Shown here piece after piece: positions 1 to 16,977 of a DNA stretch of 64,000 bases (position 1 is the stretch's first letter; every line of letters begins with the position of its first letter). The notes beneath the pieces were generated by a model. The model saw only the letters and a list, made by a program, of their open reading frames with translations, did not search any database and was not told the DNA's origin. A program made the position numbers and the translations under genes. Origin of the DNA: Aminobacter anthyllidis (GTDB taxonomy: Bacteria; Pseudomonadota; Alphaproteobacteria; Rhizobiales; Rhizobiaceae). The DNA lies in NCBI RefSeq assembly GCF_018555685.1, contig NZ_JAFLWW010000002.1, forward strand, positions 124,001-188,000. Direction: 5' to 3'.

Positions 1-1058
1 TCGAACTGGCCGTCCTCACGCGCCCGTGCCACCCGCGGCCACACATAGGTGTGCGCGTTATCAGGATCGATGCGGATGCGCCCCTGGGGCGCGTCGAATT
101 CCGAGCCGAGAATTGCCGGCCGCAACGCCTCGACATCGTCGGTCCTGGCTTTGCGCAGCGCATTCGCCACCACGTGGACCTGGAAGTAGGCCGCTTCCCA
201 ACACATGTTGGTCACGGCATCGCCGCCGAACTTCTTTTTGTAGCGCTCGACACAGCGTTCGTTCTGCATGCCACCGACGGACTGAAAATAGGTGGCTGAC
301 GTAATATGCCCGGCGCCCACATCGATGCCCATCGCCTGGATGTCGGACTCACTGGTTGTCAGGCTGGCGATCGGCATCGACTTCGCATCGAGGCCCGCTT
401 CCGCAAACGCCTGATAGAAATGGACGATGCTTTCGCCGACGAAATTGCAGAAGATCAGGTCCGGCTGCTTGCGTTTGATGTCTGATATCAGCGGCTTGTA
501 GGCCGCCCGCCTGGCGTCGAGCTTCAGATAGCCCCGGCCAGCCACCTCCCCGCCATGCTTCAGCACCATCTCGGTCATGATGCGGTCTGACTCGCGCGGC
601 CATATGTAGTCGGAGCCGACCATGTAGAAGCGCTTGCCGACATGGTTGAGGAGATGCTCCCCCAGCTGAACGCTGTTCTGGTTGGGGGCGGCACCGCAGT
701 AGATGGCATTGCGCGAGTACTCGAAGCCCTCATACTGGGCGGGGTAGCAGAGCAGCCCGTTGCGGTGCTCGACCGCTTTCAGCACAGCCTTGCGCGTGCT
801 CGACATGTAGCAGCCAAAGATGATCCTGACGCTGTCCTCGACAAGCAACCGGTTTGCCAGGCGATTGTAGGCGACTGCATCGGAGAATGGGTCGTAATGG
901 ACCGCCACGAGCTCACGCCCGTTGATGCCGCCGGCTTCATTGACCTCGTGGATCGCAAACAGCGTCGCATTCAGCATGCTGCGTTCCATCACCGAAGTGA
1001 CGCCGGTCTGGGAGAACAACACGCCGACCTTCATCGGCTCCTCGGTTCTTGTCGCCAT
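1..1058 (-). CDS. AmiC-like cytoplasmic amide/urea sensor (partial, runs off left edge)
   Basis: The reading frame is open from an ATG at 1058 leftward to the window edge, about 352 residues, so the C-terminus is missing. It belongs to the type I periplasmic-binding fold family of AmiC and UrtA-like proteins (Peripla_BP_5). The segments KVGVLFSQTG near the N-terminus, YEGFEYSRN and AAPNQN match those of the second AmiC-like gene at 10848 (YEGFE, CPNQ). No signal peptide precedes the ligand-binding domain, which points to a cytoplasmic sensor like Pseudomonas AmiC rather than an ABC-transporter binding protein. GGAG lies about 9 bases before the ATG. It is divergent from the hydantoinase operon and has its own leader terminator. 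The ligand is unknown; an amide, ureide or hydantoin is inferred from the neighbours. An AmiR-like partner may lie just beyond the left edge. Confidence 0.85.
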   Translation of the reverse strand, partial: MATRTEEPMKVGVLFSQTGVTSVMERSMLNATLFAIHEVNEAGGINGRELVAVHYDPFSDAVAYNRLANRLLVEDSVRIIFGCYMSSTRKAVLKAVEHRNGLLCYPAQYEGFEYSRNAIYCGAAPNQNSVQLGEHLLNHVGKRFYMVGSDYIWPRESDRIMTEMVLKHGGEVAGRGYLKLDARRAAYKPLISDIKRKQPDLIFCNFVGESIVHFYQAFAEAGLDAKSMPIASLTTSESDIQAMGIDVGAGHITSATYFQSVGGMQNERCVERYKKKFGGDAVTNMCWEAAYFQVHVVANALRKARTDDVEALRPAILGSEFDAPQGRIRIDPDNAHTYVWPRVARAREDGQF

Positions 1059-1101
1059 CAATTGCCAACTCCGTCAGATTGTTCATCCGCGAACTCGACA
1101 C

Positions 1102-1143
1102 AAAAAAAGCGCCCAGCGCGGGGAAACCGCAGCAAGCGCCTTT
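1102..1143 (-). terminator. intrinsic-type terminator in the leader of the AmiC-like gene
   Basis: Read on the minus strand, an AAAGGCGC arm pairs with a GCGC-TTT arm (one bulged G). An inner GCGG/CCGC helix follows, and the structure ends in seven T residues (plus-strand A 1102-1108). It lies about 45 bases before the ATG at 1058, so it would stop transcription before the sensor gene unless it is relieved. The stem has an internal loop, so it is less perfect than the hairpin at 1434-1474. The position, inside a 5' leader rather than after a gene, suggests attenuation. Confidence 0.6.
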
Positions 1144-1170
1144 GCTCGACCGTCAGGGACATCGCTGTCC
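1131..1170 (-). promoter_or_regulatory. tandem hexaloop hairpins, candidate ANTAR antitermination target
   Basis: On the minus strand two short hairpins precede the terminator. The first is GGAC-AGCGAT-GTCC (1170-1157), with A at loop position 1 and G at position 4, as in the described ANTAR RNA motif. After about 10 bases comes AGCAA-AGGCGC-TTGCT (1146-1131), a hexaloop starting with A. Its loop and 3' arm overlap the 5' arm of the terminator, so the two structures exclude each other. Caveats: the second loop has C, not G, at position 4, and the first hairpin could close one more A-U pair to give a GCGA tetraloop. Confidence 0.4.
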
Positions 1171-1362
1171 TTACGTAAGTTGTGCCTGAAGCTACATAGC
1201 GCGTCAACTCGCTTGCGCTTCGGCAGGCAACATTCGTCTTCGAGACGAAAACTCATTCGCAGGCTTCAGCGCCGAGCGCGCGTCGAGCAGGCTTCTGCCA
1301 AGCCGGCAACCGTGCAAATCCAAGGCTTTCCCTGGCATTGGACGCGTCGCGCGAATTGCCAG

Positions 1363-1391
1363 TTGACAGAAATCCGCAAGTCTCGGATGAT
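1363..1391 (+). promoter_or_regulatory. candidate sigma-70 promoter for the hyu operon
   Basis: TTGACA at 1363-1368 is a perfect -35 hexamer. It is separated by 17 bases from GATGAT at 1386-1391, which matches four of six -10 positions. Initiation would fall near 1398, just before the tandem hairpins and the terminator at 1434-1474, leaving a leader of roughly 290 bases before the GTG at 1685. I saw no convincing sigma-54 site in this intergenic region. Confidence 0.4.
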
Positions 1392-1403
1392 CATCGACAT
1401 CAG

Positions 1404-1443
1404 GCCTGCGACGCTGCGGGCTGAGAACAGAGCAAAAAGGCTC
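1404..1443 (+). promoter_or_regulatory. tandem hexaloop hairpins before the hyu leader terminator
   Basis: The first hairpin is GCCTGC-GACGCT-GCGGGC at 1404-1421, with one G-U pair and a six-base loop with G at position 4. Eight bases later comes GAGC-AAAAAG-GCTC at 1430-1443, a six-base loop starting with A. The second hairpin uses bases 1434-1443, which are also the 5' arm of the terminator, so the two folds compete. The layout copies that on the other strand at 1131-1170. Loop identities agree only partly with the ANTAR consensus, so this is a candidate. Confidence 0.35.
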
Positions 1444-1474
1444 CCGCGGGTTATCTCCGCCGGAGCCTTTTTGC
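1434..1474. terminator. strong bidirectional terminator in the hyu leader
   Basis: AAAAAGGCTCC (1434-1444) pairs perfectly with GGAGCCTTTTT (1462-1472). The helix continues after one mismatch with GCGG/CCGC around a seven-base loop (1450-1456). A runs on one side and T runs on the other make it a terminator in both directions. It sits between the divergent AmiC-like gene and hyuA, downstream of the candidate hyu promoter and about 210 bases before the hyuA start. It is therefore in the leader, not at the end of any gene visible here. Confidence 0.75.
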
Positions 1475-1684
1475 GTTTCATCACCAGTGCGCTGCGCCCG
1501 ACTTTTCTTCGGCTCCGCAGACAGCAACGACGCTGACAATACCCATTGCCGCTTGGAGCAACGCAAGTCGCTCTCAAACAAAAATCACCGGGATTCCTTT
1601 GGGAACTCGGACATGCGGAGCTTTGTCAAAACAATCCGCGTGGTGGGAACTTCGAAAAAACATCAGCCTGAGGAGGAACTGGAC

Positions 1685-3745
1685 GTGAATAAAGTAGAAA
1701 CGTTTGGCACTGCGGTGCGCGTGGCCTGCGATGTGGGCGGCACGTTTACCGACGTGTGCATCCTGAACGAGGCTTCCGGCAAGATACATGTGGCCAAGAC
1801 GCCGACGACGCCGGATCCGATCGACGGCGTGCTCAAGGGCATCGAAGCGGGCGGCGTCGCCCTTCGCGACATCATCCTGTTCTCGCACGGCACGACGCTG
1901 GCAACGAATGCGCTGATCACCCGCCGCTTCCCGCCCGCCATCATGGTGACGACCAAGGGTTTTCGCGACGTCATCGAAATTCGGCGCGGCACGCGTGACG
2001 ACCTCTGGGACACCTACAAGGAAATGGCCCCTCCCTACCTGCCACGCCGTGACCGGCTGGTGGTCACCGAACGCATCGACTATTCCGGCAAGGTCATCGA
2101 GGGCGTCAATGAAGCCGAGGCGCGTGAGCTTGCCCGCGTCATCAGGAAGCGCAACGTCAACAACATCGCCATCTGCTTCGTGAATTCCTTCGTCAATCCC
2201 GAAAACGAGCAGCGGATGCGCGACATCCTGCTGGAGGAACTGCCCGGCGTTTCGATCTCGCTGTCGAGCGACATCATGCCTGAGATCTTCGAGCATGAGC
2301 GCTTCAACACCACCGTCGCCAACACCGTGCTTGGACCGGTCGCGGGACAATATGGCGCCGAACTCGAAAGCCGCATGCAGGACGGCGGTTATGCCGGAGA
2401 TGTGCTGCTGCTCCATTCCGGCGGCGGCGTCATGACCGCCAAGGGCGCCACCAAGTTTGCCGCACGACTGGCGGCATCGGGTATCGCAGCCGGCGCGATC
2501 GCCAGCCGCTTCATCTCGGAGCTTGCCGGCTACAAGAACTCGATCAGCCTCGACATGGGCGGCACCAGCACCGACATCAGCCTCTGCTCAGACGGCCATC
2601 TCCACGTTACCAACGACTGGCATGTCGAATATGGCTATCCGATCCGCTTCCCCAGCATCGAGGTCCTGACCATCGGCGCCGGCGGCGGTTCGCTGGCCTG
2701 GCGCGACGCGGCTGGCGCGCTTCGCAATGGACCGCAATCCGCCGGCTCGACGCCGGGACCGGTCTGCTACAATCAGGGCGGCACGGAGCCTACCAACTGC
2801 GACGCCAACGTCTATCTCGGTCGCCTGGGAACCAAGCTCGCCGGCGGCAAGGTCGAACTTGACGTCAAGCTTGCCGAAGGTGCCATCAACCGCGTCATCG
2901 CCGAACCTTTCGGCATGGACACAGAGCAGGCAGCTCTTTCGATCCTTAAGGTCGCGAACGCCAATATGGCGGACGCCGTTCGCCTGGTCTCGCTGCGCAA
3001 GGGTTACGACCCACGCGACTTCGCGCTGGTCGCCTTCGGCGGCGCCGGCGCGTTGCACGGCGTCGCACTGGCCAGGGACCTCTACATCCCTGTCGTCCTG
3101 ATCCCGCCGAACCCTGGCGTGACCTCGGCAATGGGCTGCCTGCTTGTCGACATCACCCACGACATCACGCAGATGTACACCGATACGGTCAGCGCCATCG
3201 ACATGGCCGAGCTCAACAACGCCTTCCGCCTCCTGGAAGAAGACGGACACGACCGTCTGTTGAGCGAGGACATCTCGCCTGAGCAGATGCTGTTCCAGCG
3301 CTACATCGACATGCGCTATCTCGGTCAGTGGCGGTCCATGTCGATCCCGGTCAGCGCCGACATCACCAACCTCGATGAGGCGGTCAAGCAGTTCCACGAG
3401 GAGCATGGCCGCGAGCACAACTACTCCCGGCCCGATGCCCCGGTTGAAGTATGCCGCATCCAGGTCAAGGCCACCGGCCTCAACCGCAAGGCGGAACTGG
3501 CCAAGCACGAACTGCGCAAGGCCCCGCTGCCGGCTCCGGTTGGCGAACGCATGGTGCGGTTCGACGAAGCGCCCGAGCGCATCAAGACGCCGATCTACGA
3601 CCGCTCGACCCTGCATGCAGGCGCGGTCGTCGTGGGTCCCGCGATCATCGACCAGCTCGACTCCACCATCGTCGTGCCGCCCGAGATCAAGGCCGAAGTG
3701 GATGAGTACCTGATCATCAGGATGCACGTTCCGCAGCAGTCCTGA
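1685..3745 (+). CDS. hyuA: hydantoinase/oxoprolinase family subunit A (ATP-dependent)
   Basis: The start is taken as GTG 1685, preceded by AGGAGG at 1671-1676 with 8-base spacing. The longer open frame from 1487 would cross the leader hairpin region without a ribosome site. The product is about 686 residues, the usual length for HyuA, N-methylhydantoinase A and acetone-carboxylase beta subunits. It shows the family's phosphate-binding motifs: DVGGTFTDV at residues 16-24 and DMGGTSTDI in the central domain. These enzymes use ATP to activate a cyclic amide or ketone and act as a complex with the B subunit encoded directly downstream. The substrate (hydantoin, N-methylhydantoin, 5-oxoproline or a ketone) cannot be told from sequence. 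The adjacent NCS1 permease and amide-type sensor favour a hydantoin or ureide. Confidence 0.85.
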   Translation: MNKVETFGTAVRVACDVGGTFTDVCILNEASGKIHVAKTPTTPDPIDGVLKGIEAGGVALRDIILFSHGTTLATNALITRRFPPAIMVTTKGFRDVIEIRRGTRDDLWDTYKEMAPPYLPRRDRLVVTERIDYSGKVIEGVNEAEARELARVIRKRNVNNIAICFVNSFVNPENEQRMRDILLEELPGVSISLSSDIMPEIFEHERFNTTVANTVLGPVAGQYGAELESRMQDGGYAGDVLLLHSGGGVMTAKGATKFAARLAASGIAAGAIASRFISELAGYKNSISLDMGGTSTDISLCSDGHLHVTNDWHVEYGYPIRFPSIEVLTIGAGGGSLAWRDAAGALRNGPQSAGSTPGPVCYNQGGTEPTNCDANVYLGRLGTKLAGGKVELDVKLAEGAINRVIAEPFGMDTEQAALSILKVANANMADAVRLVSLRKGYDPRDFALVAFGGAGALHGVALARDLYIPVVLIPPNPGVTSAMGCLLVDITHDITQMYTDTVSAIDMAELNNAFRLLEEDGHDRLLSEDISPEQMLFQRYIDMRYLGQWRSMSIPVSADITNLDEAVKQFHEEHGREHNYSRPDAPVEVCRIQVKATGLNRKAELAKHELRKAPLPAPVGERMVRFDEAPERIKTPIYDRSTLHAGAVVVGPAIIDQLDSTIVVPPEIKAEVDEYLIIRMHVPQQS

Positions 3746-3788
3746 ACGACGCCCCTCACGCCACACAAATTTGAATTGGAGATTGGAA

Positions 3789-5798
3789 ATGGCACCGAAA
3801 AAAGATCGCCGTACGCTCGATCCAGTTACCTTTGAAGTTCTGAAGAACGCCTACGTCAACATCGTCGACCAGATGGCGGAGCAGATCCTGCGCACCTGCT
3901 ACTCGTTCGTCATCTACTCACGCGACTTCTCCTCGGCCCTGTGCGACCCGACCGGAGACACCATCATGCAAGGCAGTGGCGATATCGCCGCTCACGTTGG
4001 AACGCTTCACCTGACCGCCAAGGCGGTGATCAAGAAGTTCGGCAATGACGTTCATCCAGGCGACGTCTTCGTCATCAACGACGTCTACCAGGGCGGAACC
4101 CACTTCAACGATACGCGGCTGTTTGCACCGATGTTCTACAAGGGCGAGCTGCTTGGTTATGCCCAGGCCAACGGCCATTGGGCGGATGTCGGCGGTGCTG
4201 TCCCTGGCTCGTTCAACGTGAACGCGCTCGATCACATGGCCGAAGGCCTTCGCATCACACCGGTCAGGGTCTACAGCAAGGGCGTCTATCTTTCCGACGT
4301 CGCCGAGCTGATCGCCCACAACACGCGTGCGCCCAGCGACATCATCGGCGACCTCCAGGCCCAGGCCGAAGCTTGCCGTCTTGCCGAACGCGAGGTTCAG
4401 CGTCTGTGCGACAAATACGGCGTCGACACGATCAAGAAGTCGTTCAACGAGGTCCAGGACTACGTCGAGGACATGACGCGCCAGCGCATCTCCGATTTGC
4501 CTGATGGCACCTGGGAGACCATCGACTACATCGACGTTGACCCTGACCTGGGCGAAGGCCTTGTCCCCATCAAGGTGAAGATGACCATCGATGGCGACCG
4601 CGTCCACTATGACCTGACCGGATCGCATCCCAAGTCTGTCGGTTCGTTCCTGAACTGCTGCTACGGCGGCGCATTCGCGGCAGTCGTTGCCGGAACGAAA
4701 ATGCAGTCGCCTGATATTCCGATGAACTCCGGCTTCTACCGTGTCGTGACTGTCGATGCGGGTCCCTTGGGCTCGGTCGTCAACGCCGAATGGCCGACGC
4801 CTGTCGCCGGCTTTGCCTCAGGGCCGTTCGAGAAGATCATGAATGCCGTCTTCGAGCTCTGGGCCGAGGTCCTGCCGGAGCGCGCCATGGCCTGCACCTT
4901 CAACCTCGACTACCTGCTGATCGGCGGTCGCGACACGCGCCACGAAGGCAAGCCGTACTTCATGTGGTACGACTGGATGGTCGGCGGCTGGGGTGCGCGA
5001 AACGGCCGCGACGGCTGGGCGGCCACCGGCCCGGTGTTCGGTGTCCAGCTCGGAACCCAGCCTTTCGAAGGTCAGGAGCGCCTGTCGCCGGTGCTGACCA
5101 CCTGCCACGAGCTGATGGTCGATTCCGGTGGCCCAGGCGAATTCCGCGGCGGCCTCGGCGTCCAGAAAGGCGGCACGCTTTATGCCTGCGAACGCACCGT
5201 GGTGTCCTATTGCTGCGACCGCGAACGCTCGATCACCTGGGGCCTGTGGGGCGGACTGCCCTCCATCCCGCACGGTGTCTGGGTCAATCCGGGCCAGGAG
5301 ACGGAGCGCTACCTTGGCTCCCTCTTCTCCGGCGTGCCGCTCCAGCAGGGCGACACCGTCCAGCGCCCCTCGGCCGGCGGTGGCGGGCTTGGCGATCCGC
5401 TCAAGCGCGATATCAATAGCGTGCTCAGTGACGTGGTCGAAGGCTACGTTTCCATTGAGCGGGCCAAGAAGGACTACGGCGTCATCGTCCATGTGATCGA
5501 CATCGATCTCGACGAATACAAGATCGACGAGAATGCGACACTGGCGGAGCGGGCACGCATCGCCAGCCACCGCAAGGAATGGCTGAACGAAGACGCCGCG
5601 AAAATCGCAGCCCTCTATCGCGACAAGAAGCTCAACATGCTCGATCTGATCAGGCAGTACGGCGTCATCGTCGACTGGGGTTCGGGCGAGCTTCTGCCCA
5701 AGACCACCGCCGAGTTCCGCGAGATGCTGAAGCGTCGGACGGTTCCCTACTGGACGGCATCGGGCCAAGCCGCCAACGCGACCTTGAAAGTCGCCTGA
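3789..5798 (+). CDS. hyuB: hydantoinase/oxoprolinase family subunit B
   Basis: ATG 3789 follows GGAG at 3778-3781 and lies 43 bases after hyuA. The product of 669 residues is a full-length HyuB. It begins with the typical DPVTFEVLKN segment and contains RDFSSALCDPTGD, HPGDVFVINDVYQGG and, near the C-terminus, the glycine-rich RPSAGGGGLGDPL, all standard for the family. It acts in the cytoplasm with HyuA to open a hydantoin or pyrrolidone-type ring, or to carboxylate a ketone, at the cost of ATP. The A-B-permease order supports import followed by ring opening. Nothing is truncated or odd. Confidence 0.85.
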   Translation: MAPKKDRRTLDPVTFEVLKNAYVNIVDQMAEQILRTCYSFVIYSRDFSSALCDPTGDTIMQGSGDIAAHVGTLHLTAKAVIKKFGNDVHPGDVFVINDVYQGGTHFNDTRLFAPMFYKGELLGYAQANGHWADVGGAVPGSFNVNALDHMAEGLRITPVRVYSKGVYLSDVAELIAHNTRAPSDIIGDLQAQAEACRLAEREVQRLCDKYGVDTIKKSFNEVQDYVEDMTRQRISDLPDGTWETIDYIDVDPDLGEGLVPIKVKMTIDGDRVHYDLTGSHPKSVGSFLNCCYGGAFAAVVAGTKMQSPDIPMNSGFYRVVTVDAGPLGSVVNAEWPTPVAGFASGPFEKIMNAVFELWAEVLPERAMACTFNLDYLLIGGRDTRHEGKPYFMWYDWMVGGWGARNGRDGWAATGPVFGVQLGTQPFEGQERLSPVLTTCHELMVDSGGPGEFRGGLGVQKGGTLYACERTVVSYCCDRERSITWGLWGGLPSIPHGVWVNPGQETERYLGSLFSGVPLQQGDTVQRPSAGGGGLGDPLKRDINSVLSDVVEGYVSIERAKKDYGVIVHVIDIDLDEYKIDENATLAERARIASHRKEWLNEDAAKIAALYRDKKLNMLDLIRQYGVIVDWGSGELLPKTTAEFREMLKRRTVPYWTASGQAANATLKVA

Positions 5799-5806
5799 CC
5801 CGGACA

Positions 5807-5836
5807 GGCAGCAAGCTCGAGATCGAGCTTGCTGCC
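5807..5836 (+). promoter_or_regulatory. perfect 14-bp hairpin between hyuB and the permease gene
   Basis: GGCAGCAAGCTCGA (5807-5820) is followed after two bases by its exact reverse complement (5823-5836), starting 8 bases after the hyuB stop. Only TTCTT follows, so it is a poor intrinsic terminator. It is more likely an RNA processing or stability element that sets permease expression relative to the enzyme, or a partial attenuator. Confidence 0.6.
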
Positions 5837-5884
5837 TTCTTGGCTATTGGAGTTCCCGATCAAACGACAATCTGGAGAACAGTC

Positions 5885-7222
5885 ATGTCTGGAAGTCTCG
5901 ATGTCGCAGGTGAGTTAGACTATTCGCAAAGGCCTGTCCCACCCAGTGGCCGCATGCCCAAGCTCAATCTTACGATGGCGTTTTGGGCGATCTGCAGCGC
6001 CATGTTTTTCCTGATCATCTCGGCAACACTCGCCGAGATCTATGGCACGGCCAATACGATCATTGGCCTGATACTGACGGTTATCTCTTATTCGGCGATC
6101 AATGCCGTGATTACCCGCTACGCGATCCGCTCGGGCCTGTCGGTCTCGCTGTTTTCCCGGTTGCTGTTCGGCCGCTACGGATCGGCGATCGCAACCTTCA
6201 TCTATGCGGTCTCCAGCATCTATTACGCCGTGTTCGAAGGCTCGGTGATCGCCACCGCGGCGACTTACTACTTTGAAGGCCTGACCTTCGCTGTCGCAGC
6301 TTTGATCGTCTGCATCTACAGCGTGCCGCTGATCCTGGGCAGCGTCCAGCATTGGCTCGACAAGTTCAACGGCTATCTGCTGCCGCTATATCTTCTCGGC
6401 TTGTTTGGCACAGTGGTCTACGCCATTTCCCACTACGGCTACAGCAATGCGTGGCTCACCATGACGCCGGATGGCGGCGCCCCGCCCTATGGCTGGATCA
6501 ACGTCTTCATCGCCTTTATGGGCGTGTGGTGGATGATGATGTGCACCTTCGACTTTGCCCGCTTCGGCAAGAAGGAAGACGAGACCTACCACGCCGTGTT
6601 CAATTTCGGCCTGCCCTTCTACACGCTGACCTATTTCGTCAACGGCCTGGTCGGCATCTTCCTGGTGCAGACGATCCCGCTCGAGGGCGCAACCTCGGAG
6701 GTGTCGGTCGTCAAGGCGCTGATCGTGATGATGGGCGCGCTCGGCCTGCTGTTCGTCTGGATCAGCCAGACCCGGATCAACACAACCAACTTCTATCTGT
6801 CGACCGTCAACATGCAGGCGTTCTTCAGATTGGTGTTCAAGCTGGAAATGCCGAAATATGTCTGGGCAACCATCGTCGGCATCATCGTCTACTTCGTGAT
6901 GCTCGCGAACATCTTCCAGTACATTCTCATCGCCCTCGCCTACCAGGGGATATTTGTTGTCGCCTGGGTCGGTGTTGCATTGGCATATATACTGTGCGGA
7001 CAACATGACGGCGCCGGCGAGGAAGGCGAACGGTCAGATGACGAATTCCCGGCCTATTATGCGCCCGGCATGGTTGCCTGGTTCAGCGCGGTGGCACTCG
7101 GCATCGGGCTCTTGCTGGTACCTGGATGGGAACTGCTTTCCGCCCCGGCTACGGTGATCAGCAGTTTCGTCTTGTTCTGGGGTCTTTCGGGACGCGTAAG
7201 AACGGTCGCTATCGCCTCATGA
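5885..7222 (+). CDS. NCS1-family purine/cytosine/hydantoin-type permease
   Basis: The start is ATG 5885, giving 445 residues; the open frame from 5579 overlaps hyuB and has no reason to be used. The protein is a polytopic inner-membrane transporter with about twelve hydrophobic segments, starting around residue 28 (LNLTMAFWAICSAMFF). NCS1 features include the early LIISATLAEIYG helix and the SRLLFGRYGS segment. NCS1 proteins are cation symporters of nucleobases, allantoin and hydantoins. As the third gene of the hyu unit it probably brings in the substrate of HyuAB. A hydrophilic, acidic segment rich in E and D lies between the last helices near residues 385-400. The exact substrate is not readable. 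Confidence 0.8.
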   Translation: MSGSLDVAGELDYSQRPVPPSGRMPKLNLTMAFWAICSAMFFLIISATLAEIYGTANTIIGLILTVISYSAINAVITRYAIRSGLSVSLFSRLLFGRYGSAIATFIYAVSSIYYAVFEGSVIATAATYYFEGLTFAVAALIVCIYSVPLILGSVQHWLDKFNGYLLPLYLLGLFGTVVYAISHYGYSNAWLTMTPDGGAPPYGWINVFIAFMGVWWMMMCTFDFARFGKKEDETYHAVFNFGLPFYTLTYFVNGLVGIFLVQTIPLEGATSEVSVVKALIVMMGALGLLFVWISQTRINTTNFYLSTVNMQAFFRLVFKLEMPKYVWATIVGIIVYFVMLANIFQYILIALAYQGIFVVAWVGVALAYILCGQHDGAGEEGERSDDEFPAYYAPGMVAWFSAVALGIGLLLVPGWELLSAPATVISSFVLFWGLSGRVRTVAIAS

Positions 7223-7343
7223 AACTCCCGGGCGCGGTCGCGTTCTCGAAAACCATTATCGAGATTCGACGGCGCCCGGACGAACGCCACTTGTAAGACA
7301 ACCGCGCCGCTTCCAGCCTCTGGCACTGGCCTCGTGCGCAATA

Positions 7344-9110
7344 TTAGTGGCCAGCCTCGACCGCCTTGCCTTCAACCCACGCCGCCTGGATCGCCTGCCT
7401 AAGTTCCGCCTCCGATATCGGCTTGTGCAGAATGCGGCTGCCACTCGCGCTCACCTCCTTCAAACGTGATGGCGAGGTATCTCCGGTGATGATGATGGAC
7501 GGGACGGTTTGGCCGAGGTAGCCACACAGCGTCCGGATTGCTTCGAGCCCGGTCGCCCCATGCGCCAGGCGATAGTCGGAGATGATCAGGTCGACCGGCG
7601 CTTCGCCTCGCATGGCAGCCGCTGCGTGTACCGCTTGCGCCTCCGCCGCGGATCGGCCCGCATAAACGTGGTGCCCCTCGATCGTGAGCAATTGTTCCAT
7701 CGCCTCGAGGATGTCGCTCTCGTCCTCGACGACAATGATGCCGCCGGCGATGGTTCCGGCCATCGTTTCGCGTTGGGAGATCGGCGCTCTGGCCGCGCGG
7801 ACTTGGGGAACCGTGACGGAAAACATCGAACCGCGCCCGGGCGTGGATTTCAGCTTCAGCGGGTGTTTCAGCAACTCGGCGGTGCGGCGAACGATGGCAA
7901 GGCCCAGGCCGAGGCCTTGCGTGCGATCCCGGGCCGGGTTCTGCAACTGTACGAATTCCTCGAAAATCATCGCCTGCTGATCAGCTGCAATGCCCGGTCC
8001 CGTGTCCCAGACCTGGATCTCGACGAGATCGCCGCGCTTGCGGCAGCCAAGTGCGACACCGCCCTCCTTCGTGTAGCGAAAAGCGTTGGTCAGCAGGTTG
8101 CTGAGCACGCGCTTCAGCATCATAGGGTCGCTTTCGACCTGAAGATCGCTGTCGACCACCCGCCATTTCAGGCCGCGCTGCTTTGCTTCGGCGGCGAACT
8201 CCTCGCGGAAATCGCGGAAGAGTTCGCGCAGTCCCACCGTTTCGCGGGCGACGGTGACGACGCCGGCATCGAGCTTGGAGATGTCCAGCAGCGCGTTCAA
8301 CAGACCGCTGAGATTGCCGATGATCGATTTCGCCCGGCCTGCAAGCCCGCGCGCCTGCTCGGCCGGCACGTTGCCGCGTTTCGCCAGCACGGCGATCGTC
8401 GACACCAGCAGGCTGAGCGCATGGATGGGCTGGCGCAGATCGTGGCTTGCAGCAGCCAGGAAGCGGGTCTTCGCTCGATCGGCTGACTGCGCACGGTCGC
8501 GCTCTTCCTGCAGGTGCTCGACAAGCCTTTCGTTTTCCATGCGCAGGCTGATCGTCTCGCGCAGCATGCGGTAGGTGATACGGCAATAGTAGAAATTGAT
8601 CGCGACGAGCGAGGCGAGCAGGAAAAGGAAGGCGCCCGATATGGAACTTCCACTGGTGATGGCGCGCGCCGCGACCGGCAACACCGTCGCGAGAATCGAG
8701 CCGATGAGGGCCGGCGGAAAGGCCGACAGCGACGGCACGGTACCGCAGACGAGGCCCGTCAGCACAACAACCGTGAAAGACAGCAATAGCGGGGCCTCGG
8801 GCAGGAACCCGACCCAGCCGAATATGCCCCACAACAACCCCGATACCCAGGAAAACGCCGCTGCGAGCCACGCCCATCGCATGATGGATGCCGAACCGCG
8901 AGGGCGGCTGAAAAAGCGGCGGGAAGCAAAAACGCGCGCGGCGGTCAGCAGATACAGCGTGCCAAGCCAGCCGGCCAGCCAGGTGGTGGATACGCCGCTC
9001 CTCAGGACGTAGACGGCAGCAAGAGAAATGGCGATGTTGGAGATGACCACGCCATATGAATTGCGATAGAGAAGCTCGACCAGTGCCTGGCGTATCTTGT
9101 CTTCCTGCAT
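7344..9110 (-). CDS. membrane hybrid histidine kinase with C-terminal receiver
   Basis: 588 residues. The N-terminal half (about 20-180) holds several membrane helices and no obvious periplasmic sensor domain. A short coiled segment leads to the HisKA domain with the phospho-acceptor histidine at residue 223 in ASHDLRQP. The ATPase domain follows with TNAFRYTKEGG (N box), DTGPGIA (G1) and GLGLGLAIV (G2). A receiver domain runs from about 457, with acidic residues VEDE, Asp512 in SDYR and Lys563 in LHKP. The DLRQP box marks a kinase class often paired with LuxR-type response regulators. Such a regulator is divergently encoded 131 bases away, so the two probably form a phosphorelay. The signal is unknown. 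Confidence 0.9.
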   Translation of the reverse strand: MQEDKIRQALVELLYRNSYGVVISNIAISLAAVYVLRSGVSTTWLAGWLGTLYLLTAARVFASRRFFSRPRGSASIMRWAWLAAAFSWVSGLLWGIFGWVGFLPEAPLLLSFTVVVLTGLVCGTVPSLSAFPPALIGSILATVLPVAARAITSGSSISGAFLFLLASLVAINFYYCRITYRMLRETISLRMENERLVEHLQEERDRAQSADRAKTRFLAAASHDLRQPIHALSLLVSTIAVLAKRGNVPAEQARGLAGRAKSIIGNLSGLLNALLDISKLDAGVVTVARETVGLRELFRDFREEFAAEAKQRGLKWRVVDSDLQVESDPMMLKRVLSNLLTNAFRYTKEGGVALGCRKRGDLVEIQVWDTGPGIAADQQAMIFEEFVQLQNPARDRTQGLGLGLAIVRRTAELLKHPLKLKSTPGRGSMFSVTVPQVRAARAPISQRETMAGTIAGGIIVVEDESDILEAMEQLLTIEGHHVYAGRSAAEAQAVHAAAAMRGEAPVDLIISDYRLAHGATGLEAIRTLCGYLGQTVPSIIITGDTSPSRLKEVSASGSRILHKPISEAELRQAIQAAWVEGKAVEAGH

Positions 9111-9241
9111 CCGATTCCCCCAAGTGCCGGATGAAGATCGCTCAAGCTGTCCTTCCCCCGGACAGTTGATCTACCGGCAATTTATTTCCCATAAGTTGGC
9201 ATTCTACCAACTCGCATCGCTTACCCATGAATGGTGACCAT

Positions 9242-9901
9242 ATGAACCGCCCTCTCACCTTCATCATTGCCGACGACCACGCGCTGGTGCGCGAAGGGCT
9301 GAAAATGCTGATCTCGTCTATGGACAACATGTCGGTGGTTGCCGAGGCGGCGGACGGCGAAGCCTTGCTGGAGCAGGTCGCCAAGACGCGCGCCGACCTG
9401 TTGCTCCTCGACCTCGGCATGCCGGGCGTTGCCGGAATCCAGTTCATCTCCGACATCAGCGAGCTTGTTCCTCGCCTCAAGATCGTGGTTCTGACCGCGA
9501 ACATCGAGCCGAGAACCGTGCGCGCCGCCCTTGAGGCCGGCGCCAGCGCCTACCTGACCAAGGACGGCGACCCCGAGGAACTCGGCGAGGCCATCGAAGC
9601 GGTCAGGAAAGGCGGAACCTATCTGGCCCGAACGGTACGCTTCGCGATCAGCGACCCCAGCCGAAACAGCAGGCCGGCGGCGGCTGCGGATATCCTTTCG
9701 CCGGTGCCGCTGACCCGGCGTGAGCGCGAAATCCTCGCTCTGGTAGCGCAGGGGCTTACGGCACGCGAAATCGCCGAGCGGCTGGGCATCAGCCCGCTGA
9801 CGGCGCGCAAGCACCGCGAAAACCTGATGGGCAAGCTCAATCTTCACAGTGCCGCCGAACTGACCGCCTATGCGGTTCGCCTGGGATTGCCCACGGCCTG
9901 A
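9242..9901 (+). CDS. NarL/LuxR-family response regulator
   Basis: ATG 9242 is preceded by GGTGA and gives 219 residues; ATG 9227 in the same frame would add five residues but has no ribosome site. The receiver domain begins TFIIADDHALVREG, with the phosphorylated aspartate at residue 57 (LLLLDLGMPG) and the conserved lysine in YLTKDGD. The C-terminal LuxR-type HTH is LTRREREILALVAQGL...GISPLTARKHRENLMGKL. It is divergent from the hybrid kinase and most likely its phosphorylation target, acting as a DNA-binding regulator. Targets are unknown; the neighbouring nitrogen genes and the shared intergenic region are candidates. Confidence 0.88.
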   Translation: MNRPLTFIIADDHALVREGLKMLISSMDNMSVVAEAADGEALLEQVAKTRADLLLLDLGMPGVAGIQFISDISELVPRLKIVVLTANIEPRTVRAALEAGASAYLTKDGDPEELGEAIEAVRKGGTYLARTVRFAISDPSRNSRPAAAADILSPVPLTRREREILALVAQGLTAREIAERLGISPLTARKHRENLMGKLNLHSAAELTAYAVRLGLPTA

Positions 9902-10067
9902 CAGCCGCGCAGCGCCGTCTCCGCGGGCAACCCTCGAGTCAATATTTGCTTAACCATCAACAGATTAGCCAACAAGAAGCGCGTTCCAAATACGGCATCT
10001 GTCGTATGTCTTCAGGCTAGTGACGAGCCTAATTCTCCCGCGATTGCTTCATCCGGGAGGAGCCGAC

Positions 10068-10685
10068 ATGCCATCGCTGGAACTGTGGATTCCGTTCGCC
10101 GCCGCAACGCTTGCCTTTGCCTGCATGCCGGGACCGGCAATCCTCTACATGACCGCACAGACCGCAGCGCTCGGCCGCAGGGCCGGCTTGATGGCGGCGC
10201 TTGGCGTCCACATCGGCTGTTATGTCCATATCCTTGCCGCCGCCATCGGCCTGACCTCGCTGATCGAGCAAGCGCCGATGCTCTATGCAGCGATCAGGCT
10301 AGCCGGCGCCGCCTATCTCGTCTGGCTCGGGCTCTCGATGTTCATGGGCTGGGGCAAATCCGCAAGCAAGGCCGCCGGCCCCGCTTCGCAAAGCTTGCGC
10401 GACAGTATCATCGTCGAGGTACTCAACCCGAAGACCGCGCTGTTCTTCCTGACCTTCCTGCCGCAATTCGTCGATCCTGCCGCAGCCTTCCCGCTGTGGC
10501 TGCAGTTCCTGCTGCTTGGCATGTTCGTGAACCTGGTCTTCTCGATAGCCGATGTCGCCGCCGTCGGCATCGCTTCGGTCACCCTAGCCCGCGTTGCATC
10601 AGGCGATGCCGGCTGGATAGTGCCCAAGGCCTGCGGCTCGATCCTCGTCGGACTTGGCGTCGCGCTTGTCAGCCATCAGATCTGA
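10068..10685 (+). CDS. LysE/RhtB-family amino-acid exporter
   Basis: ATG 10068 follows GGGAGGAG (10055-10062), giving 205 residues, the usual LysE/RhtB size. Five to six hydrophobic helices are visible. Family features are FACMPGPAILYMTAQT near the N-terminus and LNPKTALFFLTFLPQFVDP in the middle. It exports small amino acids or related metabolites across the inner membrane. It is probably its own transcription unit: the next gene begins 163 bases downstream after a promoter-like sequence and a terminator. The substrate is unknown. Confidence 0.85.
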   Translation: MPSLELWIPFAAATLAFACMPGPAILYMTAQTAALGRRAGLMAALGVHIGCYVHILAAAIGLTSLIEQAPMLYAAIRLAGAAYLVWLGLSMFMGWGKSASKAAGPASQSLRDSIIVEVLNPKTALFFLTFLPQFVDPAAAFPLWLQFLLLGMFVNLVFSIADVAAVGIASVTLARVASGDAGWIVPKACGSILVGLGVALVSHQI

Positions 10686-10719
10686 CCGGGCCTACCGATC
10701 CAGGCATTCGCATTGGCTC

Positions 10720-10747
10720 TTGACTGGCAGGCGCGAAAAGCTACGCT
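10720..10747 (+). promoter_or_regulatory. candidate promoter of the amide operon
   Basis: TTGACT at 10720-10725 resembles a -35 box and is followed 16 bases later by TACGCT at 10742-10747, a weak -10 match. Initiation would fall near 10754, leaving a leader of about 95 bases that contains the terminator before amiC. The -10 is poor, as would suit activated or low-level expression. This is a weak call. Confidence 0.25.
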
Positions 10748-10784
10748 GACATCAAATACCGGCCCCGACTGCCGGGTGGCAAAC

Positions 10785-10836
10785 ATGCCTCGTATGCCTC
10801 GCCTCCCGGCGGCGGCTGCGGGGCATTTTTGTTTTT
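10785..10836 (+). terminator. leader terminator of the amide operon with duplicated 5' arm
   Basis: ATGCCTCGC (10794-10802) pairs with GCGGGGCAT (10818-10826) over nine base pairs with one G-U, followed by TTTTGTTTTT. A second near-copy of the 5' arm, ATGCCTCGT, lies immediately upstream at 10785-10793 and can pair with the same 3' arm. The U tract ends where the ribosome site GGGAGG (10837-10842) of amiC begins. The terminator is thus inside the 5' leader, the position at which AmiR relieves termination in the Pseudomonas amidase operon. I could not draw a clear dual-hexaloop motif here. Confidence 0.7.
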
Positions 10837-10847
10837 GGGAGGAATTT

Positions 10848-11948
10848 TTGAAGTCGCGCATCGAAATCGGCGTGCTCTATTCGCGCTCGGGCAGCTATCA
10901 GCTGGTTGCCAACGCCTGCCATGCGGGTGCCATGCGCGCCATATCAGACGTCAATGCCGATCCGGCAAGCGGCATCGAGCTCATTGCCATCGAGCGCGAC
11001 CCCGGCGGCAATATCGACCGCTACGCCCCGCTCTGCGACGAGATCCTGCGCCAGAGCAGCGCGCGCCATGTCGTCGGCGCCGTCACCTCGTGGAGCCGCA
11101 AGGAGGTCATCCCGGTCCTGGAGAAGTCGGGAGCAGCACTCTGGTATGCCTGCCCCTATGAAGGCTTCGAGGCCAATGAGCATGTCGTCTACATGCATGC
11201 CTGCCCGAACCAGCATCTGGTACCGCTTCTGGCCCATGTCGTGCCGCGCTTCGGGGCCGATGGCTTCCTGCTCGGCTCCAATTACATCTGGGGCTGGGAG
11301 ACCAACAGGGTTGCCCGCGACCTGATTGCTGACGCCGGCGGAAAGGTGCTGGGCGAACGCTACCTGCCGATCGGCGAAGCCGACGTTTCCAGGCTGATCG
11401 CAGAGATCAAGGCAACGCGACCGGCCTTCATCCTCAACAACCTGATCGGAACTTCGTCCTACGCCTTCTTTGCAGCCTACGCCGAGCTGGCGCGCACCGA
11501 TCCACATTTCGGGCCGGAAAACTGCCCGATCCTGTCGTGCAATCTCACCGAAGCCGAGCTGCCGGCAATCAGCGAAGCAGGCCGGGGCCACCTTTCAGTC
11601 GGGCCCTACTTTCGCGACCAAGCCCAGGACGACGCGCCAGCCTCCTCCTTCGAGGCCTCGACCTATGCGTCGGTGCAGGTACTGGCCAAGGTCCTTGCAA
11701 CCGACCCAAGCGCCGGCTTCGCCGCACTGCCGGCCTTGTTCCGCAATACCAGCTACCAGACACTGCTCGGCGAGATCGCTATCGACCCGCAGACCCAACA
11801 CGCGACCCTGCCGGTCGAGATTGGCCGCATCGCCGGCCTGGGATTCGAGCGCGTCAGCCGGACCGAGCGCATGGCACCCGACCCATATCTTTCGCGTTAC
11901 GACCGAACCGAAACGTTTGGACGGCCGCGCCTCAAGGTCGTGTCATGA
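10848..11948 (+). CDS. amiC: AmiC-type amide-sensing negative regulator
   Basis: The start is TTG 10848, with GGGAGG (10837-10842) five bases upstream; starts further up in the frame would run through the leader terminator. The product is 366 residues with the periplasmic-binding fold (SRIEIGVLYSRSGSYQL, then YEGFE, CPNQ and LGSNYIWGWE) but no signal peptide. It is therefore a cytoplasmic ligand sensor of the AmiC kind. In Pseudomonas, AmiC binds and silences the antiterminator AmiR and releases it when an amide binds. The next gene overlaps by four bases (ATGA) and is AmiR-like, so the same switch is expected. The ligand is probably a short amide, from the amidase gene in the operon. Confidence 0.88.
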   Translation: MKSRIEIGVLYSRSGSYQLVANACHAGAMRAISDVNADPASGIELIAIERDPGGNIDRYAPLCDEILRQSSARHVVGAVTSWSRKEVIPVLEKSGAALWYACPYEGFEANEHVVYMHACPNQHLVPLLAHVVPRFGADGFLLGSNYIWGWETNRVARDLIADAGGKVLGERYLPIGEADVSRLIAEIKATRPAFILNNLIGTSSYAFFAAYAELARTDPHFGPENCPILSCNLTEAELPAISEAGRGHLSVGPYFRDQAQDDAPASSFEASTYASVQVLAKVLATDPSAGFAALPALFRNTSYQTLLGEIAIDPQTQHATLPVEIGRIAGLGFERVSRTERMAPDPYLSRYDRTETFGRPRLKVVS

Positions 11949-12550
11949 GCCGTGTCTCGCATATCCCCAATCTCGGCGGCGCCAAGGCCTTCGTGCTGCA
12001 TCGCCCGCATGCCAACGTCAGCGCGATCAGTCGTCAGCTTGCGGCCATCGGCCTCGCCGTCACGGACTGCTGGCCCGAACTGCCGGCGGAGGCGCTGGCC
12101 GCCGACTTCGTGTTTTTCGACGTCGATCTCGGCTTCGACCAGCAGTTTCCCTGGCCGCGCGGTGCAGCGCCGATGCCGACGATCGCGCTGATCGGCTCGG
12201 AAGCGCCAGGCCGGATCGAATGGGCGCTGTCGCACAAGGCCGACGCGCAACTGCTCAAGCCGGTCGGCAATGCCGGCGTCTACAGCGCCCTGCTGATCGC
12301 CCGGCAGAGCTTTGCTGCCCGCCGGCAGCTGGCCGACGAGATCACCGCGCTGCAGCAGCGCGTCGCCGAGCGCCAGACCATCGTGCGCGCGGTCGCGGCC
12401 TTGTCGAGCCAGGGCGTCGACGACGAACGCGCCTACGCGCAGTTGCGCACGCTCGCCATGAACTGGCAGGTCAGCCTCGAGGAAGCCGCCCGACGTGTCG
12501 TCGCCCTGACCGAAAAGGAGGGCGGCTTTGACCAGTCCCATCGCGCCTGA
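11945..12550 (+). CDS. amiR: AmiR-type ANTAR-domain transcription antiterminator
   Basis: ATG 11945 overlaps the amiC stop, giving 201 residues. The N-terminal two-thirds resemble the degenerate receiver domain of AmiR (VFFDVDLGFDQQFPW, then TIALIGSEAPGRIEWAL). A coiled coil follows (about 118-145, ARRQLADEITALQQRVAERQ), then the three-helix ANTAR RNA-binding domain (AYAQLRTLAMNWQVSLEEAA). It should bind leader RNA and let transcription pass the terminator upstream of amiC, so activating its own operon. The receiver-like domain is regulated by AmiC binding rather than phosphorylation in the known case. It may also act on the other two terminator-bearing leaders at the left end. Confidence 0.87.
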   Translation: MSRVSHIPNLGGAKAFVLHRPHANVSAISRQLAAIGLAVTDCWPELPAEALAADFVFFDVDLGFDQQFPWPRGAAPMPTIALIGSEAPGRIEWALSHKADAQLLKPVGNAGVYSALLIARQSFAARRQLADEITALQQRVAERQTIVRAVAALSSQGVDDERAYAQLRTLAMNWQVSLEEAARRVVALTEKEGGFDQSHRA

Positions 12551-13433
12551 GATGCCCGCCATCGCTGTGCCGGCCAAGGCACGCGCCGGTGTCTGGGGAC
12601 GCCTCGTCAAGCGGCCACTGGCGATGACCGGCCTGGCGATCATCGCGATCACCGGCGCTGGCGCCCTGCTCGCCCCCTATCTCACCGGCTACGACCCCAA
12701 CGAGCAGATGTTCGACGGCCTGACGCTGGAAGGCGCGCCACTGCCGCCCAGCGCCACCTTCTGGCTCGGCACCGACCTGCTCGGCCGGGACCTTCTGACC
12801 CGCATTCTCTACGGCGCGCGGACCTCGCTGATCATCGGCATCGTCGCCAATGGTGCGGCACTTTTGATCGGCACGCTTGTTGGCATCACCGCCGGCTACT
12901 TCCGTGGTTTCATCGGCGCCGCCCTGATGCGCTTCACCGACCTGATGATGGCCTTTCCGGCGTTGCTGCTCGCCATCTGCCTTGCGGCGGTGTTCCAGCC
13001 CAGCCTGTGGATCGTCGCCATGGTGATCGCGCTGGTCAACTGGGTGCAGACGGCGCGTATCGTCTTCACCGAAACGAGTTCACTCGCCGAACGCGAGTTC
13101 ATCGACGCCGAGCGCACCATCGGGGCCAGCACGCCCCGCATCCTGTTCCGCCACATCCTGCCACATCTTCTGCCGACGATCATCGTGTGGGGCACGCTCG
13201 GCATTTCGACCACCGTGCTTCTGGAGGCCACGCTGTCCTACCTCGGTATCGGCGTGCAGCCGCCCACCGCCTCGTGGGGCAACATCATCTTCGAAAACCA
13301 GACCTACTTCCAGGCGGCACCCTGGCTGGTGTTCTTCCCCGGTGCCGCGATCCTGGCGCTGGCGCTCGCCTTCAATCTTGTCGGTGACGCCCTGCGCGAC
13401 ATTCTCGACCCGACGCAGCGGGGCCGGGCATGA
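12528..13433 (+). CDS. Opp/Dpp-type ABC transporter permease (DppC-like)
   Basis: TTG 12528 has AAGGAGG at 12515-12521 and overlaps the amiR end by 23 bases. ATG 12552 is the alternative, but the ribosome site fits the TTG. The product is about 301 residues with the DppC layout: an N-terminal helix (LAMTGLAIIAITGAGALLAPYL), the GTDLLGRDLLTRILYGARTSL segment and the EAA loop ERTIGASTPRILFRHILPHL. It forms the inner-membrane channel with the next gene. In this operon order it precedes the DppB-like partner, the reverse of the usual dpp arrangement. The substrate is inferred to be an amide or amidated compound. Confidence 0.88.
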   Translation: MTSPIAPEMPAIAVPAKARAGVWGRLVKRPLAMTGLAIIAITGAGALLAPYLTGYDPNEQMFDGLTLEGAPLPPSATFWLGTDLLGRDLLTRILYGARTSLIIGIVANGAALLIGTLVGITAGYFRGFIGAALMRFTDLMMAFPALLLAICLAAVFQPSLWIVAMVIALVNWVQTARIVFTETSSLAEREFIDAERTIGASTPRILFRHILPHLLPTIIVWGTLGISTTVLLEATLSYLGIGVQPPTASWGNIIFENQTYFQAAPWLVFFPGAAILALALAFNLVGDALRDILDPTQRGRA

Positions 13434-14350
13434 TCGCCTATCTCACCCGCCGGCTGATCCAGGCAGCGCTGATCCTGCTCGGCGTGTCGCTGATCACCTT
13501 TGCGCTGCTCTACCTGCTGCCGGCCGACCCGGTGCGCCAGATCGCCGGCCGCAGTGCGACGCCGCAGACGGTCGAGAGCATCCGCCAGCAGCTCGGGCTC
13601 GACCAGCCCTTCGTCGTCCAGTACTGGCGCTATCTGACCAACCTGCTCAGCGGCGACCTCGGACGTTCCTACATCCAGCGCTCGGAGGTCAGCGAACTGA
13701 TCGTCTCGCGCCTGCCGGCCAGCCTGCTCCTGATGGTCGGCGCGATCCTGTGCGAGTTACTCATCGGCCTGACCATGGGCCTGATCGCCGCCGTCAAGCG
13801 CGGCACCGCCACCGACCAGGCGCTGATGGTCGGCTCGTTCATTGGCGTGTCGGCACCGCAATTCGTCGTCGGCCTGCTTCTGCTCTACGTCTTTGCCGTC
13901 AAGCTCGGCTGGTTTCCGATCGGCGGCTACGGCACCTGGCGGCATATGGTGCTGCCGTCGCTGACGCTCGGCATCCTCGGCGCCGGCTGGTATTCGCGCA
14001 TGATGCGCTCGTCGATGATCGACGTCTTGCGCCAGGACTATATCCGCACCGCCCGCGCCAAGGGCCTCGCCCAGCGCGCCGTGCTGTTCGGCCACGCTTT
14101 GCCCAACGCCATCCTGCCGGTCGTTGCCATGATCGGCATCGATATCGGCCTGTTCATGGGCGGCATCGTGGTGGTCGAAAGCGTGTTCGGCTGGCCAGGC
14201 ATCGGCCAGCTCGCCTGGCAGGCGATCCAGCGCGTCGACATCCCGATCATCATGGGCGTCACGCTGGTGTCCGCCTGCGCCATCGTGCTCGGCAATCTGC
14301 TCGCCGACATCGTCGCCCCGTTCATCGATCCGCGCATCAAGCTGCGCTGA
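13430..14350 (+). CDS. Opp/Dpp-type ABC transporter permease (DppB-like)
   Basis: ATG 13430 overlaps the previous stop by four bases, giving 306 residues. Typical DppB features are the N-terminal MIAYLTRRLIQAALILLGVS helix, the ADPVRQIAGR periplasmic stretch, and the EAA loop ARAKGLAQRAVLFGHALPNA. The C-terminal VVVESVFGWPGIGQLAWQAI is also typical. With the DppC-like protein it makes the membrane channel, energised by the fused ATPase encoded at 16974. Tight overlap indicates translational coupling within the amide operon. Confidence 0.9.
   Translation: MIAYLTRRLIQAALILLGVSLITFALLYLLPADPVRQIAGRSATPQTVESIRQQLGLDQPFVVQYWRYLTNLLSGDLGRSYIQRSEVSELIVSRLPASLLLMVGAILCELLIGLTMGLIAAVKRGTATDQALMVGSFIGVSAPQFVVGLLLLYVFAVKLGWFPIGGYGTWRHMVLPSLTLGILGAGWYSRMMRSSMIDVLRQDYIRTARAKGLAQRAVLFGHALPNAILPVVAMIGIDIGLFMGGIVVVESVFGWPGIGQLAWQAIQRVDIPIIMGVTLVSACAIVLGNLLADIVAPFIDPRIKLR

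Positions 14351-16973: not shown

Positions 16974-16977
<4 letters not shown>
16033..16977 (+). CDS. acetamidase/formamidase (FmdA/AmdA family)
   Basis: 314 residues from ATG 16033, which overlaps the end of the solute-binding gene by 11 bases. The protein carries the family hallmark FSVGDTHAAQGDGEVCGTAI at residues 188-207 and the N-terminal metal-site-like GRHHHFGWDNS. These enzymes hydrolyse formamide, acetamide or related short amides to ammonia and the acid in the cytoplasm. The gene sits between the transporter's binding protein and its ATPase, under the AmiC/AmiR switch. The operon thus imports an amide and releases its nitrogen. The precise amide is unknown; peptide-type transporters can carry larger amidated molecules. 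Confidence 0.88.

Follow-up and report, generated by a model that had tools for sequence, protein, structure and literature searches.

Probable AmiC–AmiR antitermination at hydantoinase-type and acetamidase/formamidase-type operons of Aminobacter anthyllidis

Control by ANTAR-domain antiterminators has been described chiefly for amidase, nitrate, and ethanolamine genes. As laid out in parts of PMC3369931, known targets consist of two hairpins with six-nucleotide loops (hexaloops) that carry A at loop position 1 (A1) and G at position 4 (G4), and the second hairpin overlaps an intrinsic terminator; this definition is used throughout. In the eut genes of Enterococcus faecalis, the linker between the hairpins spans 5-12 nucleotides (nt), and a wide survey in the same source places ANTAR targets before many nitrogen genes. 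In the EutV structure, G4 stacks on Tyr164, A1 probably serves the fold of the RNA, and the dimer apparently cannot accommodate both loops simultaneously (part of PMC8934654). A survey of actinobacterial targets tolerated single point variation in a loop (part of PMC8164766). Here, we examine a stretch of 64,000 nt from Aminobacter anthyllidis, termed the window (C12:124001-188000 of a 6.7-Mb genome; coordinates on either strand are those of the window unless a contig or locus is named), in which a neighboring AmiC/AmiR pair probably opens leader switches and thereby places hydantoinase-type genes (hyuA and hyuB) under this kind of control.

Given the genes, the leaders, their conservation, and their mutually exclusive folds, AmiC–AmiR antitermination in two separate circuits is the best reading of this DNA and, in our judgment, a quite probable one; AmiR binding, response to a ligand, the start sites, and readthrough are what we infer from it. 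In the left circuit, transcription would start just upstream of a first leader hairpin, P1. In the absence of inducer, AmiC would keep AmiR inactive, the leader would fold as a terminator, and RNA polymerase would stop. Binding of a small amide-like or cyclic-amide-like ligand to AmiC would free AmiR to bind P1 and the second hairpin, P2; because P2 uses the 5ʹ arm of the terminator, the latter is proposed to be unable to form, and transcription would enter the genes. Targets of the left circuit would be amiC-amiR itself (autoregulation), hyuA-hyuB with the gene of a membrane protein, and a gene for an XRE-cupin regulator, possibly a second tier of the circuit. The right circuit, built on a diverged second AmiC/AmiR pair, would act likewise on its own operon only, which comprises amiC-amiR, an Opp-type transporter, and an acetamidase/formamidase. 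The ligand that opens a leader, presumed to be an amide or hydantoin, is probably a substrate or product of the pathway.

Leader RNAs of the left locus

The left amiC-like sensor gene (window 1..1058, minus strand) encodes a Peripla_BP_5/6 protein and has its last 0.1 kb to the left of the window; the whole gene spans L006:7902-9062, L006 being the stretch that covers the left locus beyond the window edge. An amiR-like gene, whose presence left of the window was at issue in the preliminary description of this DNA, lies directly after it (L006:7153-7809, minus strand; start 0.2 kb left of the window), so that a protein with AmiR_N and ANTAR domains is encoded beside an AmiC-type binding protein. 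Left AmiC matches Pseudomonas aeruginosa AmiC (1pea) with E=6.6e-80 and left AmiR matches AmiR (1qo0) with E=2.9e-21. Both AmiR proteins of the window keep a Tyr and a Met equivalent to Tyr164 and Met172 of EutV (right AmiR aligned to EutV and left to right, with the PDB numbering offset worked out by hand). Ligand-triggered release of AmiR by left AmiC is putative.

The preliminary description had placed an intrinsic-terminator-like hairpin in the 5ʹ leaders of left amiC, hyuA, and right amiC, and all three are found there, preceded by a promoter-like site and followed by the first gene; each leader runs from a TTGAC promoter hexamer through a small hairpin and the terminator to that gene. 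The terminator hairpin of the left amiC leader lies at 1106-1142 on the minus strand (1102..1142 with its 7-T tract; free energy, ΔG, of -18.9 kcal/mol), that of the hyuA leader at 1436-1470 on the plus strand (1436..1472 with its 5-T tract; -22.6 kcal/mol), and that of the right amiC leader at 10785-10826 on the plus strand (10785..10836 with its T tracts; -28.6 kcal/mol, 5 T), where it adjoins the ribosome-binding site at 10837-10842. A strict scan of the window (at least 5 T and ΔG at or below -15 kcal/mol) gave nine calls versus 3.1 +/- 1.5 in 60 shuffled controls (maximum 8), and five of the nine fall at the three leaders when opposite-strand and alternative calls are counted. A loose scan found no excess in the window (29 versus 24-34 in 10 shuffled controls), and a simple scan missed all three leaders (8 terminators found, 9.9 expected). 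Mono-nucleotide shuffles of the individual hairpins matched their energy in 14/500 cases for left amiC and in 0/500 for both hyuA and right amiC. Leader specificity rests on conservation and the ANTAR dual-hairpin layout, not on the hairpins by themselves.

The left amiC leader has the complete set of ANTAR-target features. On the minus strand, P1 (1157..1170; GGAC[AGCGAT]GTCC, loop in brackets) and P2 (1133..1148; CGAGC[AAAGGC]GCTTG) both have A1 and G4, the linker measures 8 nt, and P2 overlaps the terminator 5ʹ arm. This is the only case in the window of dual A1/G4 hexaloops with an overlapping terminator, and 40 shuffled windows contained none. The hyuA leader has the same layout, a dual hairpin overlapping a terminator, with one consensus base exchanged in each loop: P1 (1403..1422, plus strand; GGCCTGC[GACGCT]GCGGGCT) keeps G4 and has G for A at position 1, and P2 (1430..1443, plus strand; GAGC[AAAAAG]GCTC) keeps A1 and has A for G at position 4. 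When the loop search was relaxed to [AG]..G.. and A..[AG].., it returned only the left amiC and hyuA leaders in the window, with three chance matches in 40 shuffled windows. A reading of the hyuA P1 change as a harmless compensatory pair was dropped, since A1 is suggested to prevent cross-loop pairing (part of PMC8934654).

A fourth leader (C12:122913-122993, minus strand; 84% like the hyuA leader) came up when the left intergenic region was used as a DNA query. It lies after left amiR and before the gene for the XRE-cupin regulator, a HTH_3 and Cupin_2 protein encoded directly after left amiR (L006:6098-6994, minus strand, ~1.0-1.9 kb left of the window).

In all three leaders of the window, the terminator fold is more stable than an enforced P1+P2 fold (-27.6 versus -23.1 kcal/mol for left amiC, -44.0 versus -25.9 for hyuA, and -42.3 versus -33.0 for right amiC); for left amiC and hyuA, a nascent transcript that ends at P2 forms P1 plus P2 in silico. 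Promoter-like sites precede the hairpins at 1179..1207 on the minus strand for left amiC (TTGACG-17-CACAAC), at 1363..1391 on the plus strand for hyuA (TTGACA-17-GATGAT; kept in four genomes), and at 10720..10747 on the plus strand for right amiC (TTGACT-16-TACGCT, read from the sequence and the hexamer count). The TTGAC hexamer lies 35-42 nt upstream of P1 in 22 of 24 leaders, a set counted apart from the right-type leaders L079-L087 and the loci of the hyuA survey described below; accordingly, transcription is expected to start near P1. The exceptions to this spacing are the amiC leader of genome G006 and the right-type leader of G051.

The ~210 bases between its terminator and the hyuA start codon would also suit an arrangement in which hyuA is transcribed from a true promoter located between 1473 and 1685 and its hairpin acts only as a boundary terminator that shields the gene from transcription arriving from upstream. 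The hairpin reads as a minus-strand terminator as well, and in relatives with the genes on one strand, it could simply end the amiC-amiR unit. Against such a role, the site just before P1 is the only sigma-70-like match of the scan in 14 kb (2.7 expected by chance) and is conserved, and the hyuA element resembles the amiC and XRE leaders in sequence. Furthermore, no upstream neighbor gene needs ending in the window because hyuA is divergent from amiC. We regard a boundary terminator as improbable here.

The genes downstream of the hyuA leader are hyuA itself (1685..3745, plus strand; Hydantoinase_A, Hydant_A_N, and Hydant_A_C domains; hydantoinase/oxoprolinase A subunit), hyuB (3789..5798, plus strand; Hydantoinase_B; hydantoinase B subunit), and, in the same operon, a gene for a polytopic membrane protein (5885..7222, plus strand) that follows hyuB in four named Aminobacter records. 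Both domain sets of an ATP-dependent hydantoinase (N-methylhydantoinase/oxoprolinase) are present, which is the function predicted for the two subunits. The closest named relatives of hyuA are those of Aminobacter carboxidus, A. ciceronei, A. niigataensis, and A. aganoensis (96-99% identity). The membrane protein is a probable transporter; no convincing Pfam, NCBIfam, or PDB relative was found at the thresholds used, and its structure prediction was unusable (mean predicted local distance difference test score, pLDDT, 35).

Conservation of the left-type leaders

Conservation within the genus was followed in a sample of 10 genomes, in which G005 and G006 are taken as A. niigataensis and A. aganoensis, and G007 and G002 as A. 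carboxidus and A. ciceronei. The left amiC leader terminator is kept in all six gene-bearing genomes and the hyuA terminator in five of the six. The XRE leader is also kept in G007, G001, and G002, with a consensus P1 loop (ACCGAT or ATCGAA). The hyuA leader of A. niigataensis and A. aganoensis, an ortholog of the one in the window, sits between amiR and hyuA, all on one strand, and both of its loops, AACGTT and AAAGAA, are consensus. The expectation that the leader hairpins would be conserved in relatives therefore holds for Aminobacter, with G001 having lost the hyuA terminator; the close relatives proved to be Aminobacter, not the Mesorhizobium named in the preliminary description.

A covariance model, R1, was built from 13 leaders (five hyuA, four XRE, and four amiC). 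These are 13 of 15 rows, as the amiC leaders of G005 and G006, with P1 lacking a hexaloop, were omitted; the hyuA leader of G001, which lacks a terminator, was never part of the alignment. Over 12 distinct rows, every cell is paired, and two-sided changes occur at three of the four P1 pairs; P2 has one-sided change only. The number of independent events is small because the rows form three related groups. With 150 of 4338 first-look candidates scored, R1 has three strong matches in the genome, at the XRE (4.2e-16), hyuA (1.6e-15), and left amiC (5.6e-13) leaders; all are training sequences and lie within 2.6 kb, and the next match (0.011) is on the opposite strand of the hyuA hairpin.

Five ANTAR genes are present in the genome, one of which, a separate gene at C12:468751, we take to be NasT. 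One of the five other than the neighboring AmiR could in principle rule the leader terminators, as could a riboswitch or leader-peptide attenuation; among Rfam families, Ysr190 matched best, over the right amiC leader, with an E value of 0.43 and a score of 28.9 bits where 66 are required. Weighing on the other side, positions 1-14000 contain no Rfam match above a family cut-off, the predicted distance from transcript start to P2 (~24-32 nt) would be too short for a usual leader peptide, and strong R1-type sites occur only around left amiR. Such regulators are therefore very improbable compared with the AmiR encoded at the locus.

Beyond the genome, R1 at or below 0.001 in a sample of 151 family genomes, searched with stricter filters, matched only three: its own, G003, and G121, other locus-bearing Aminobacter evidently not having been drawn. 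The G003 match, located among open reading frames of transporter genes, is taken as chance. In G121, which belongs to another genus, the match stops directly ahead of a gene with 46% identity to left AmiC, provided that the start is the Met near L231:1489. A second R1 scan covered 25 sources, 19 of these from the hyuA loci surveyed. Outside the training set, R1 matches 0.2 kb upstream of hyuA in a metagenome-assembled genome (MAG) of Rhodobacteraceae (L118, E 1.7e-5), with neither AmiC nor AmiR found in the flanks of that hyuA, and more weakly at Methylopila amiC leaders (L113, 0.0013; L178, 0.0043).

A survey of 80 hyuA loci, some clipped by contig ends, linked hyuA to AmiR among the closer homologs. 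Identity of hyuA is at least 69% in 26 loci, and AmiR is nearby in 14 of these; in the remaining 54, less similar loci, neither AmiC nor AmiR was found. Among the 14, amiC-amiR lies directly upstream on the same strand in 11, divergently in two, and downstream in one. A terminator (-21 kcal/mol or better, at least 5 T) occurs in the amiR-hyuA gap of 10 of the 11 same-strand loci and before amiC in nine, the exceptions being Hyphomicrobiaceae UBA7697, with neither, and Acidisphaera, without the amiC one. The amiR-hyuA gap of a Pseudomonadota MAG (L115:6664-7028) holds two tandem, similar hairpin-terminator units. Most leaders of Methylopila-like loci have a hairpin overlapping the terminator. 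Altogether, 52 leaders were examined, with a terminator in 48, an overlapping hairpin in 46, and an additional upstream hairpin in 33; P2 and upstream hairpin were both as good in 1.9% of trials in which the upstream part was shuffled.

Several observations weigh against the AmiC–AmiR reading, and the hyuA and XRE P2 loops without G4 are its main weakness. In the hyuA leader of the window, each loop misses one of A1 and G4, and the XRE P2 loop, AAAAAA, is without G4 in all four genomes. In EutV targets, A1-to-U or G4-to-A changes in either loop reduced induction (part of PMC3369931), and G4-to-A is precisely the difference found in hyuA P2. RNAfold adds a 1-6 pair inside the P1 loops of the left amiC and hyuA leaders, turning them into tetraloops. 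In G001, both P2 and the terminator of hyuA are deleted; in G005 and G006, a clear hexaloop is missing from the amiC-leader P1; the Methylopila-like loci yielded no consistent P1; and four of the 10 genomes of the genus sample, itself small, have no match to the locus. Additionally, an equally good P2 arose in 16% of trials with the upstream part shuffled, so that an overlapping hairpin alone is weak evidence, and the base pairs of the right leader, described below, hardly covary.

These loop changes would also be expected if AmiR controlled only left amiC-amiR, and perhaps the XRE-cupin gene, with the hyuA leader decaying and hyuA constitutive or otherwise regulated. Both hyuA hexaloops are one base off in all three terminator-keeping genomes of the clade (G000, G007, and G002), and the fourth, G001, bears the deletion noted above. 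Decay is harder to reconcile with the hyuA P1 stem, 7-nt linker, P2 stem, terminator, and promoter spacing, all of which are kept, or with the consensus P1 of the XRE leader, a close copy. Moreover, the XRE leader shares the A4-type P2 loop in all four genomes, which makes A4 seem characteristic of the clade and not a sign of decay. A decaying hyuA leader is thus unlikely in our view, if less so than the other alternatives, and control of hyuA by AmiC–AmiR antitermination is preferred.

The proposed right amiC-amiR circuit and neighboring genes

The claim that one unit encodes AmiC together with an ANTAR-domain AmiR is confirmed by domain content: AmiC-type and ANTAR-type AmiR domains are found in the right pair, and the AmiC type in the left gene. 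Right amiC (10848..11948, plus strand; Peripla_BP_5/6) matches 1pea with E=2.2e-39, and right amiR (11945..12550, plus strand), with AmiR_N and ANTAR above cut-off, matches 1qo0 with E=1.5e-7; both are more distant from these proteins than the left pair. The right amiC leader has P1 at 10759..10775 (plus strand; CCGGC[CCCGACT]GCCGG), with a 7-nt loop and a sequence that is conserved with almost no covariation, and P2 at 10778..10789 (plus strand; GGC[AAACAT]GCC), which overlaps the terminator 5ʹ arm. Two hairpins and the overlap of P2 with the terminator are therefore present, and two A1/G4 hexaloops are not.

R1 gives no match at this leader, which, with its different loops, needs a model of its own, R2. 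In the genome, R2 has one strong match (9e-27, a training sequence), followed by one at 0.013. Right-type leaders were tested separately because the automatic choice of P2 differed from the manual reading for several of them: a GGC-N6-GCC hairpin before the terminator is found in 14 of 17 relatives, with A1 in 13, versus 3% in a shuffled control. As to the proposal of an antitermination regulon run by one or two AmiC/AmiR pairs, the antitermination logic remains probable and two pairs are present; a single regulon of three leaders does not, since the right leader has other loops and its own model.

Downstream of right amiR lie two Opp/Dpp-type permease genes (12528-13433 and 13430-14350, plus strand; open reading frames within 12528..14350) and a gene of the acetamidase/formamidase family (16033..16977, plus strand; FmdA_AmdA). 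With this gene, and as judged from domain content, the operon comes near to the classical use of amides. Its SBP_bac_5 gene (14370-16043, plus strand) is split over two frames, its N-terminal part in the 13342-14877 frame and its C-terminal part in the open reading frame 14874-16043; the break, roughly placed at ~14750-14790, is a frameshift or sequencing error.

Between the two circuits, a hybrid histidine kinase (7344-9110, minus strand) and a LuxR-type response regulator (9227-9901, plus strand) are divergently encoded. Two further amiC-amiR loci, L009 and L010 (G000:C25:193079-196538 and 170214-174592), are each followed by another binding-protein gene. No clear ANTAR-type leader was found in the 250 bases before amiC at either of these; one has a weak, start-spanning hairpin (-13.2 kcal/mol), and the other a hairpin of -17.8 kcal/mol with 4 T ~180 bases upstream.

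Comparison with described systems

In a literature search of titles, abstract openings, term counts, and selected passages, no paper ties hydantoinase genes to AmiR/ANTAR antitermination, an unremarked listing in the supplementary target tables of PMC3369931 being possible. It is conceivable, though we would not call it probable, that hydantoinase/oxoprolinase-type (cyclic amide) operons of alphaproteobacteria are widely controlled by AmiC/AmiR antitermination in a manner so far undescribed, in which target RNAs drifted from the dual A1/G4 hexaloop, AmiR–RNA specificity consequently co-evolved, and paralogous circuits 10 kb apart became insulated. The drift would have led to A4 loops in Aminobacter, to P1 loops of 7 nt and P2 loops of the A1 type in right-type leaders, and, at Methylopila-type loci, to a single 5- to 7-nt hairpin that overlaps the terminator. 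For the large HyuA/HyuB family, members of which act on quite different compounds, the locus provides a candidate regulator together with an inducer screen that can be tested. Furthermore, its two paralogous AmiC/AmiR circuits, which lie 10 kb apart and differ in their RNA loops, constitute a natural test of ANTAR target discrimination.

Each of the described systems shares part of this arrangement. Within the caprolactamase, 5-oxoprolinase, and N-methylhydantoinase superfamily, to which hyuA and hyuB belong, hyuA falls short of the caprolactamase model cut-off (496 versus 1000 bits). The NasS–NasT system of alphaproteobacteria and others likewise pairs a sensor with an ANTAR antiterminator that acts on leader RNA (part of PMC3795266), and it differs in sensing nitrate/nitrite. 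Like the left circuit, EutV/EutW of E. faecalis has dual A1/G4 hexaloops, the second overlapping a terminator, and several leaders per regulator (part of PMC3369931); however, EutV is activated by phosphorylation and AmiR by AmiC, and the hyuA and XRE leaders are off at one or two loop bases. The right operon resembles amiCRE with its ABC transporter on plasmid pKOS9W-1, where a single operon contains amiC and amiR together with genes for an acetamide hydrolase and a transporter (part of PMC13209695), except that the enzyme is the AmiE amidase there and of the FmdA/AmdA family here. The left circuit also resembles AmiC–AmiR control of amiE in P. aeruginosa, which has a homologous AmiC sensor with an AmiR_N+ANTAR partner and small hairpins plus a terminator before the genes (mechanism in parts of PMC3369931 and PMC8934654). 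Whereas the target there is an aliphatic amidase, here it would be hyuAB and a membrane protein, amiC-amiR forms its own leader-controlled unit, and the circuit comprises three leaders.

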